64,000 nt of DNA from Halogranum gelatinilyticum (GTDB lineage: Archaea; Halobacteriota; Halobacteria; Halobacteriales; Haloferacaceae): contig NZ_FNHL01000009.1 in NCBI RefSeq assembly GCF_900103715.1, positions 1-64,000 on the forward strand, written 5' to 3'. The translations under genes and the position numbers were made by a program. Shown in pieces: positions 41,209 through 43,398 of this stretch. Each line of letters starts with the position of its first letter. Position 1 is the stretch's first letter. Below the pieces are notes generated by a model that ran no database searches, had not been told where the DNA came from, and worked only from the letters and a program-made list of their open reading frames with translations.

Positions 41209-41212
41209 TTAC
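41171..41212. repeat. Three tandem 14-bp repeats at the end of the GMC gene
   Basis: GAGTCGGCGGCTGC occurs twice (41171-41184, 41185-41198) and a third copy with two changes, GAGTCGGCGGTTAC, covers 41199-41212 and includes the stop codon of the minus-strand GMC gene. This looks like slippage duplication of the gene's last bases. Confidence 0.7.
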
Positions 41213-42804
41213 AGCACCGCGTCCAGCGCGTCGGCCGCCCGCAACGACAGTGCCGCGATTGTCAGTGTCGGATTCATCGCGCCACCGGTCGGGAAGACGC
41301 TCGACCCGACGAGCCACAGGTTCGAGAGGTCGTGCGTCCGGCAGTCGGCGTCGACGACGCTCTCGCTCGGGTTCTCGCCCATCCGTGTCGTCCCCATGTG
41401 GTGGTACGCCGGCCCGGTGGTGTCGGGGCCGACCGACCACTCGATGTCGACGCCGAGTTCCTCCAAGACGGCGCGCTGAACCTCGTTTGCCCGTTCGAGC
41501 GCGGCTTTCGTGTCGTCGTCGACGCCCCAGTGGACCTCCGGCACGGGGTTGCCGTGGTCGTCCGTCTGCGAGTCGTCGAGAGTGACGTAGTTCTCTTCTT
41601 GGGGTAACTGCTCGACGAGCGCGCCCATCGCGATGTGGCTGCCGTAGGAGTCCTGCAACTGGCCCAGAAGTTCGTCGCCCCACGTCTCGCCGTTCAGCGC
41701 CTCGATGACGGGCGACGGCCCAGCGTAGTTGAGGAACTCCAGTTTGAGCCCGTTGACTGGGTCGGTATCGTCGTAGAACTGGTGGCACTCGCTGGTGTTG
41801 AAGCCGACGTGGTTCTGTCGCGTGGGCCGGTCGAGTCGGCCGCCCATCCCGGCGAAGAGATGGTCCATGAAGTAGCGGCCGAGGGTTTCCGAGGAGTTGG
41901 CAAGCCCGTCGGGATACTGCGGCGACTCCGAGAGCAGGAGCAGTCGCGGCGTCTCCACCCCGCCGGCGGCGACGACGAACTGGTCGGCCGTCTGTCGGTG
42001 CTCGGTTCCGTCGGGAGTCACGTAGACCGCGGCCGTAACCGACTCACCCGCATCGTCGTGTTCGAGTCGCTGGACGGGCACGCGGTCGACGACCGTCGCG
42101 CCCGCCGCCTCAGCCTTGTCGACGTGGCCCTCGGCGGTGTACTTCGCGCCGGAGGGACACACCGGTTTGCACGTGCCGTAGCCGACGCAGGGCGAGCGGC
42201 CGTCGTAGCCTTCGGAGTTCCGTGCGTTCGGCACCGAGTGCATATCGAGTTCGAGCGTCTCGCAGGCCTCGGCGAACAGGCTGTCCGAGTGCGACGGCGG
42301 GAAGGCGGTCATCGGATACGGCTCCTCCCGCGGCGGCGCGTAGGGGTTGTCGTCGGCACCGGCGACGCCGAGTTCCCGCTCGGCGGCGGCGTAGTAGGGT
42401 CGGAGGTCGTCGTAGTCGAGGGGCCAGTCGGTGCCGACGCCGTGGCGGGAGTTCATCTCGAAATCCCGCTCGTGCAGCCGCATCACCATCCCCTGCCAGT
42501 GGAGCGTCGACCCGCCGACGCCCTTCACCCGCGAGGCGTTCAGCGGGTAGTAGCTGTCGCCCGAGGACGTGTAGGCGTCGCGCTCGCCGCCCATCTCCCA
42601 GATGTTACCCTGGCCGGGACGGATATGTGCCTCCTGCTGTTCGAGCCGTTCGTCCATTTCGAAGCGGCGACCGGCTTCGAGTATCACGACCTCGTGTCCG
42701 GCCTCGGCGAGTCGGTGCGCGAGCATCGAGCCGGCTGGCCCGCTGCCGACGACGCAGAGGTCCGCGCCGTCGATGGGCGTCCGGTCGGCGTGGCCGTCAG
42801 CCAT
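41209..42804 (-). CDS. GMC-family oxidoreductase (gluconate dehydrogenase-like large subunit)
   Basis: 531 residues. The FAD-binding Rossmann motif is GSGPAGSMLAHRLAEAG (about 21-37); GGSTLHWQGMVMRLH marks the second FAD contact, and HMGTTRMGENP plus NPTLTIAALSLRAADAL at the C-terminus hold the active-site His and FAD end. A CVGYGTCKPVCPSGAKY stretch is typical of the gluconate/2-keto-sugar dehydrogenase branch. Its start overlaps the small-subunit gene by 8 bases, so both form a Tat-exported complex on the cell surface. Confidence 0.9.
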   Translation of the reverse strand: MADGHADRTPIDGADLCVVGSGPAGSMLAHRLAEAGHEVVILEAGRRFEMDERLEQQEAHIRPGQGNIWEMGGERDAYTSSGDSYYPLNASRVKGVGGSTLHWQGMVMRLHERDFEMNSRHGVGTDWPLDYDDLRPYYAAAERELGVAGADDNPYAPPREEPYPMTAFPPSHSDSLFAEACETLELDMHSVPNARNSEGYDGRSPCVGYGTCKPVCPSGAKYTAEGHVDKAEAAGATVVDRVPVQRLEHDDAGESVTAAVYVTPDGTEHRQTADQFVVAAGGVETPRLLLLSESPQYPDGLANSSETLGRYFMDHLFAGMGGRLDRPTRQNHVGFNTSECHQFYDDTDPVNGLKLEFLNYAGPSPVIEALNGETWGDELLGQLQDSYGSHIAMGALVEQLPQEENYVTLDDSQTDDHGNPVPEVHWGVDDDTKAALERANEVQRAVLEELGVDIEWSVGPDTTGPAYHHMGTTRMGENPSESVVDADCRTHDLSNLWLVGSSVFPTGGAMNPTLTIAALSLRAADALDAVL

Positions 42805-43366
42805 CGTCGCCTCCCCGTCCATCCACCGACGCCTGCTGGTAGCTCTGGGTCCCGCCGGGATGTCCAATCGGATTCTCGATACCGACGAGCTCTCCGCCGA
42901 CGGGTGAGGAGTAGAACGCGAAGAGCAGGTCGTTGACGACGAAGTAGCGGACCCGATTCGAAATCGGTCCCTCGGGGTCCGGGTCGGCCGTCTCGACGCC
43001 GAGGTCCCGCAGCAGTCGGTCGCGGACGGCCGGATCGAGGGCTGCGAAGGCGTCACCCTGCCAGTCGCGCGCCAGGTCGTCGAGGTCAGTCGCGGCAGCG
43101 ACGAGACCCGCGCGGTAGTCCTCGCGACCCTCGATACGGCCGAGGACGTAGGTCTCGACGAACTCGGCGTGGCCGTCGACCTCGGTGGGGAAGAGGACCT
43201 CGGCCGCGGCCGTGAGCGTGTCGAGCACTGCCGCGGGGGGCGTCTCCTCGGGCGTCGGCTGGGTGCTCTCGTCACCGTCGCCGACGAGCGACGCGCCGCC
43301 GACGGCGACACCGACGCCGCTGGCGGCTGCGAGTGCCACCAGCGCGTCACGGCGTGTCAGCTCCAT
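42797..43366 (-). CDS. Gluconate 2-dehydrogenase subunit 3 family protein
   Basis: 189 residues beginning with a twin-arginine signal (ELTRRDALVALAAASGVGVA). The mature helical domain (about 45-170) corresponds to the small subunit of gluconate/sorbitol dehydrogenases, which carries the FAD-containing large subunit across the membrane by the Tat route. It precedes the GMC gene with 8 bases overlap. A DtxR-box-like operator lies in its promoter. Confidence 0.85.
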   Translation of the reverse strand: MELTRRDALVALAAASGVGVAVGGASLVGDGDESTQPTPEETPPAAVLDTLTAAAEVLFPTEVDGHAEFVETYVLGRIEGREDYRAGLVAAATDLDDLARDWQGDAFAALDPAVRDRLLRDLGVETADPDPEGPISNRVRYFVVNDLLFAFYSSPVGGELVGIENPIGHPGGTQSYQQASVDGRGGDDG

Positions 43367-43377
43367 CTGAACACGGA

Positions 43378-43398
43378 TTAGGTAGACCTAAACTTAAG
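43378..43398 (-). promoter_or_regulatory. Promoter with iron-box-like palindrome
   Basis: TTAGGT-2 nt-ACCTAA at 43378-43391 is a perfect palindrome with the half-site of DtxR/IdeR-type iron boxes. On the minus strand it directly follows and overlaps the TATA-like CTTAAGTTTA (43398-43389), 23-32 bases before the gene start, the ideal place for a repressor. Metal-dependent repression of the dehydrogenase operon is inferred. Confidence 0.55.

Follow-up and report, generated by a model that had tools for sequence, protein, structure and literature searches.

A candidate DtxR/IdeR-type iron box in the promoter of an exported two-subunit FAD dehydrogenase of Halogranum gelatinilyticum and other haloarchaea

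Introduction

Why should a palindrome resembling the operator of an iron repressor stand in the promoter of an exported dehydrogenase that is annotated as an enzyme of sugar metabolism? The question is raised by a locus of Halogranum gelatinilyticum in the 64-kb stretch of DNA analysed here (the window). Neither the operator type nor the enzyme family is new. An earlier report of such a dehydrogenase as an iron target was not found in the literature searched, which fell short of the key archaeal DtxR regulon papers, and this absence is weak evidence of novelty.

The candidate operator and its promoter

A sequence-only reading of the window had placed the palindrome TTAGGT-2 nt-ACCTAA directly after a TATA-like element and had compared its half-site with DtxR/IdeR boxes. 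The arrangement is exactly as claimed:

43378..43391, minus strand: candidate operator, 14-bp palindrome TTAGGTCTACCTAA with the core TTAGGNNNNCCTAA (from the sequence and position-locked conservation)
43393..43398 (about), minus strand: TATA-like element CTTAAG, immediately before the operator (from the sequence and homologue promoters)

On the minus strand, the order is GGGCTTAAGT-TTAGGTCTACCTAA-TCCGTGTTCAG-ATG, with the operator 12-25 nt upstream of the small-subunit ATG (at 43366) and separated from it by an 11-nt spacer. Homologue promoters carry TATAA or a TTAAG-like element at the place of CTTAAG. In this predicted promoter, the operator would be located where a bound protein blocks initiation.

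The likeness to DtxR/IdeR boxes extends from the half-site to the whole motif, as TTAGGNNNNCCTAA is the proposed redefined 14-bp target of a single IdeR/DtxR dimer (PMC8464063). As with the IdeR/DtxR iron box (19-bp TTAGGTTAGSCTAACCTAA; single-dimer 14-bp TTAGGNNNNCCTAA), the same 14-bp palindromic core is found in a promoter, in a genome that encodes DtxR-family proteins and has iron genes downstream of its boxes. Unlike that iron box, the Halogranum element belongs to an archaeal promoter with a TATA element and is a candidate operator, known here from sequence.

The palindrome is unique in the 64-kb window when up to two mismatches are allowed (0.29 matches expected), and the perfect form, TTAGGTNNACCTAA, occurs a single time in the 3.77-Mb genome, at the operator itself. 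Whether the motif is enriched depends on how it is spelled. The strict pattern TTAGGTNNACCTAA with up to two mismatches gave 18 matches per strand of the 3.77-Mb genome against 22 for the control, which is no enrichment, whereas the core TTAGGNNNNCCTAA had 10 sites in the same genome against 1 for its reversed control, and the totals from 60 family genomes were 629 against 71.

Conservation of the box before the dehydrogenase

Small-subunit homologues were collected from named haloarchaeal genomes (n = 80), and 69 of them carry an exact box at the gene start: 66 at 18-30 nt from the start by automatic placing, two where an alternative GTG start lies further upstream, and one whose start is masked by a run of N. 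Two further homologues have a box that is one base off. When 68 promoters were aligned, the ten core bases proved invariant or nearly so, and most flanking columns held less than 0.6 bit; because the flanking bases diverge while the box stays, the box itself is under selection. An exact box was present in 27/30 loci of a family sample (the remaining three have one mismatch at the same place) and in 25/28 loci at the level of the order, in sample sets that partly overlap and contain related species, which are not independent. The three order-level loci that lack the box belong to a separate paralogue with the N terminus MTDYELTRRD. Even where a genome has just two or three boxes, one of them precedes the dehydrogenase, and this enzyme ranks among the iron-box targets that haloarchaea retain most consistently.

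The dehydrogenase pair

The genes downstream of the operator agree with the Tat-exported gluconate-dehydrogenase-type complex that had been named from the sequence; they encode a small subunit with a twin-arginine start and a GMC oxidoreductase:

42797..43366, minus strand: small subunit, Gluconate_2-dh3 (PF13618), 189 aa, with the hitchhiker-type twin-arginine signal MELTRRDAL (domain match)
41209..42804, minus strand: large subunit, a BcGDH/FDH-type GMC FAD dehydrogenase that contains CX5CX3C (domain match and alignment)

The large-subunit gene, which starts at 42804 or 42822, overlaps the end of the small-subunit gene. Its product aligns over the whole length with Burkholderia glucose dehydrogenase (BcGDH; E = 5e-95, 517 residues) and likewise with Gluconobacter fructose dehydrogenase. 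The cysteines of its CVGYGTCKPVC segment align with Cys212, Cys218, and Cys222 of BcGDH, the three residues that bind the [3Fe-4S] cluster in the Burkholderia enzyme (PMC6719666), and CX5CX3C is kept in 95 of 96 large-subunit homologues. Judged by alignment, the large subunit keeps the [3Fe-4S] ligands, and the cluster itself is predicted. Among small-subunit homologues, the Tat start TRRDA is invariant. Among structures compared with the predicted fold of the small subunit, the fructose dehydrogenase small subunit came first, with a modest score (Z 6.1, 3.1 A, 84 residues; VIA-align 2); the next, unrelated entry reached Z 4.5, and a Foldseek search of the small subunit against the PDB gave no significant match.

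The pair forms a two-gene operon with no gene for a cytochrome c subunit beside it; the next gene on this strand, about 200 nt downstream, encodes HflX. In other genomes, the matched neighbours are FAA, HflX, GT2, RGP, or transporter genes. Since the operon lacks a cytochrome c subunit, the pair is best classed, from its gene content, as a two-subunit relative of the BcGDH/FDH-type complex and not as a three-subunit member. With the Burkholderia FAD glucose dehydrogenase (6a2u) and the Gluconobacter fructose dehydrogenase (7w2j) it shares a GMC subunit with three cluster cysteines and a Tat hitchhiker small subunit; unlike these enzymes, the haloarchaeal pair has no adjacent cytochrome c subunit, is only moderately similar in sequence, and is preceded by an iron-box promoter.

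Other boxes in the Halogranum genome

A genome search for the same box, which had been suggested as a check, revealed nine further exact boxes, several of them before typical iron genes. The nine sites stand before these genes, or between them:

contig C2, near 914 kb: PF01497 siderophore-type binding protein
contig C4, 16.2 kb (two boxes) and 18.4 kb: PF01497 siderophore-type binding proteins
contig C3, 409 kb: FbpA-like ferric-binding protein, followed by a permease, an ATPase, and a PMT-like protein
contig C1, 507 kb: PQQ-type sugar dehydrogenase
contig C2, 354 kb: DUF7553 gene with two boxes upstream
contig C1, 1118 kb: short ORF with weak similarity to DUF7331, close to a Dps-like gene

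The FbpA-like protein on contig C3 matches a ferric-binding protein (E = 5e-63) and keeps the di-tyrosine region NHYY. In the family sample, a box was found in 23/30 FhuD-type loci. The haloarchaeal iron regulon has been named ferR, after Leyn and Rodionov 2015 (PMC11349517), and the boxes described here share with it siderophore-type ABC transporter genes that bear the signal. Certain boxes of the Halogranum genome precede genes without an assigned function; beside the DUF7553 gene (L020 5118-5167), no iron gene is evident.

The PQQ-type protein is a Tat-lipoprotein of the glucose/sorbosone dehydrogenase kind (box at L023 5300-5313; contig C1 506799). An iron-controlled pathway from glucose to ketogluconate was considered on this basis and dropped, as none of 14 close homologues in the family sample (52-59% identity) has the box.

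Genomic surroundings of the pair

Among 48 family loci, four of which were chosen for their boxes and the rest by presence of the small subunit, 31 have a gene for an FbpB-like permease within about 9.5 kb of the pair, as do 11 of 20 order-level loci (42/68). These neighbourhoods usually also contain genes for FbpA, FbpC, the glycosyltransferases RGP (PF03214) and GT2 (PF00535), and a PMT_2/DUF7846 protein, often with one box before each unit, and a typical layout reads FbpB< box gdh3> GMC> box GT2> PMT< FbpA< box RGP< box. In another arrangement, which includes the Halogranum genome, the pair adjoins a fumarylacetoacetate-hydrolase-type (FAA) gene, and the Halogranum RGP-box-FbpABC-PMT set stands apart from it on contig C3. 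As in other FbpABC ferric ABC transporters, the Halogranum FbpA-like protein matches ferric-binding proteins, and it bears the same box as the pair; unlike the usual FbpABC systems, those of many haloarchaea are clustered with glycosyltransferase genes and the dehydrogenase pair.

Candidate regulators

Two DtxR-family proteins of the Halogranum genome score above the Pfam cut-off: a long form, which has a FeoA domain, and a short form. The long protein matches IdeR and DtxR structures well, and its best NCBIfam score is to a manganese regulator model, below the cut-off of that model. Each kind occurs in almost all genomes of the family, and the attempt to assign the regulator by presence or absence was dropped for this reason. 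Neither Halogranum DtxR-family gene has a box close by. Autoregulation was likewise set aside, as no box with up to one mismatch was found within about 1.5 kb at 30 short-form loci.

Proposed mechanism and alternatives

The location of boxes before iron genes, the presence of two DtxR-family proteins, the position-locked conservation, and the clustering with ferric ABC transporter genes all support reading the palindrome as a DtxR/IdeR iron box. From these sequence comparisons, we judge it highly probable that a haloarchaeal iron repressor of the DtxR/IdeR family uses the box as its operator and holds the operon under iron-type repression. With enough iron, a metal-loaded repressor dimer would occupy the box and block TBP, TFB, and RNA polymerase; when iron is scarce, the operon would be derepressed together with ferric uptake. 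We infer this direction of control, off with iron and on without it, because the box lies between the TATA-like element and the start and is common to uptake genes. The FAD/[3Fe-4S] dehydrogenase would then be exported by Tat on its small subunit and, at the cell surface, could oxidise a sugar, polyol, or glycan in a way that aids iron acquisition. Electrons might be passed to Fe(III), the pair being without an adjacent cytochrome subunit, or an oxidised, iron-binding product might feed the co-regulated ferric transporter.

We favour the hypothesis that the enzyme acts at the cell surface to reduce or bind Fe(III), because an Fe-S enzyme induced at low iron makes most sense if it gains iron. 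On the strength of gene association, a role of the dehydrogenase in iron acquisition has about an even chance of being correct. It had been suggested before that the enzyme reduces iron, which is possible; the other purpose suggested at the time, the saving of cofactors, is disfavoured by the retention of the iron-sulphur ligands and by the box that the enzyme shares with uptake genes. Against the preferred explanation it counts that an Fe-S enzyme made under iron shortage itself costs iron and that certain boxes of the Halogranum genome precede genes without an assigned function. In addition, no such dehydrogenase appears among the proteins that a published Haloferax table lists as altered 10-fold or more by iron starvation.

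The lack of enrichment of the strict pattern at two mismatches would suit a palindrome that arose by chance or has no regulatory function. However, the reversed control predicts roughly one exact core site in each genome, and most of some 130 homologues have the box in the same position, with diverged flanks. This conservation has in practice already refuted such a reading, leaving it a negligible probability. DtxR-family proteins differ in metal specificity, and the box might instead respond to manganese or a different metal by way of an MntR-like member, which would make the dehydrogenase a manganese or general metal-stress gene. The sub-threshold preference of the long DtxR-family protein for the manganese model speaks in favour of such control, but the same protein resembles IdeR/DtxR structures, boxes precede genes for ferric and siderophore binding proteins, and the motif equals the consensus of an iron regulator (PMC8464063). 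Control by manganese or a different metal is therefore quite improbable.

The remaining alternatives accept iron control and concern what the enzyme does. It could be an ordinary sugar-catabolic dehydrogenase that is tuned to iron for the sake of its Fe-S cluster and has no part in acquisition, in keeping with the conserved [3Fe-4S] ligands and with known relatives that oxidise sugars (PMC6719666). A box between TATA and start, however, implies more enzyme at low iron, the opposite of sparing, and the clustering with the ferric transporter suggests a role in acquisition; we regard a purely catabolic function as unlikely. Somewhat more plausible, though still doubtful, is that the RGP, GT2, and PMT-like glycosyltransferases encoded in the same clusters make a surface glycan which the enzyme then modifies, in a low-iron change of the envelope instead of direct iron chemistry. 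Glycosyltransferase genes are indeed interleaved with the pair, many with their own boxes, but in the FAA-type arrangement, including that of the Halogranum genome, the dehydrogenase stands apart from them. Glycan modification overlaps with the preferred explanation, and the regulation is compatible with it.

The preferred reading of iron-repressed surface oxidation can be extended, tentatively, to an iron-starvation surface module. The exported two-subunit FAD/[3Fe-4S] dehydrogenase, the RGP/GT2/PMT-like glycosylation set, and FbpABC would act together, the dehydrogenase oxidising a sugar or surface glycan and thereby reducing or chelating Fe(III) for uptake. If true, such a module would let cells obtain iron with no need for a soluble siderophore. 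The dehydrogenase family in any case gains a clear test condition (low iron) and candidate partners, namely the ferric transporter and the glycosyltransferases. The association suggests that the oxidation of surface sugars is connected with iron uptake in archaea, a connection of which we know no earlier description.

Additional observations

At L198, L231, L250, L253, and similar loci, the genes of a glycosylation set (RGP, GT2, PMT_2/DUF7846, LPG_synthase_TM) lie interspersed among those of the ferric transporter, and many units have their own box. The short DtxR-family gene and a small ORF of ferritin-like appearance overlap at the end of the latter (L027 3331-4283; contig C1 near 942 kb), and the short regulator is conserved at 73-92% identity in nearly all genomes of the family. 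Several genomes encode extra DtxR paralogues a few kb from boxed sites or iron genes (G001 C3 556484, G029 C20 48217, G042 C1 51288, G059 C2 27335, and others); from their location, it is possible that they act as local regulators. Boxes before binding-protein genes occur in pairs in several genera, with a start-to-start distance of 36 bp (35 once). Examples of paired boxes are contig C4 16223/16259 and C2 354117/354153 in the Halogranum genome, as well as loci L140, L155, and L162-L165. The recurrent spacing hints at cooperative binding by two dimers.
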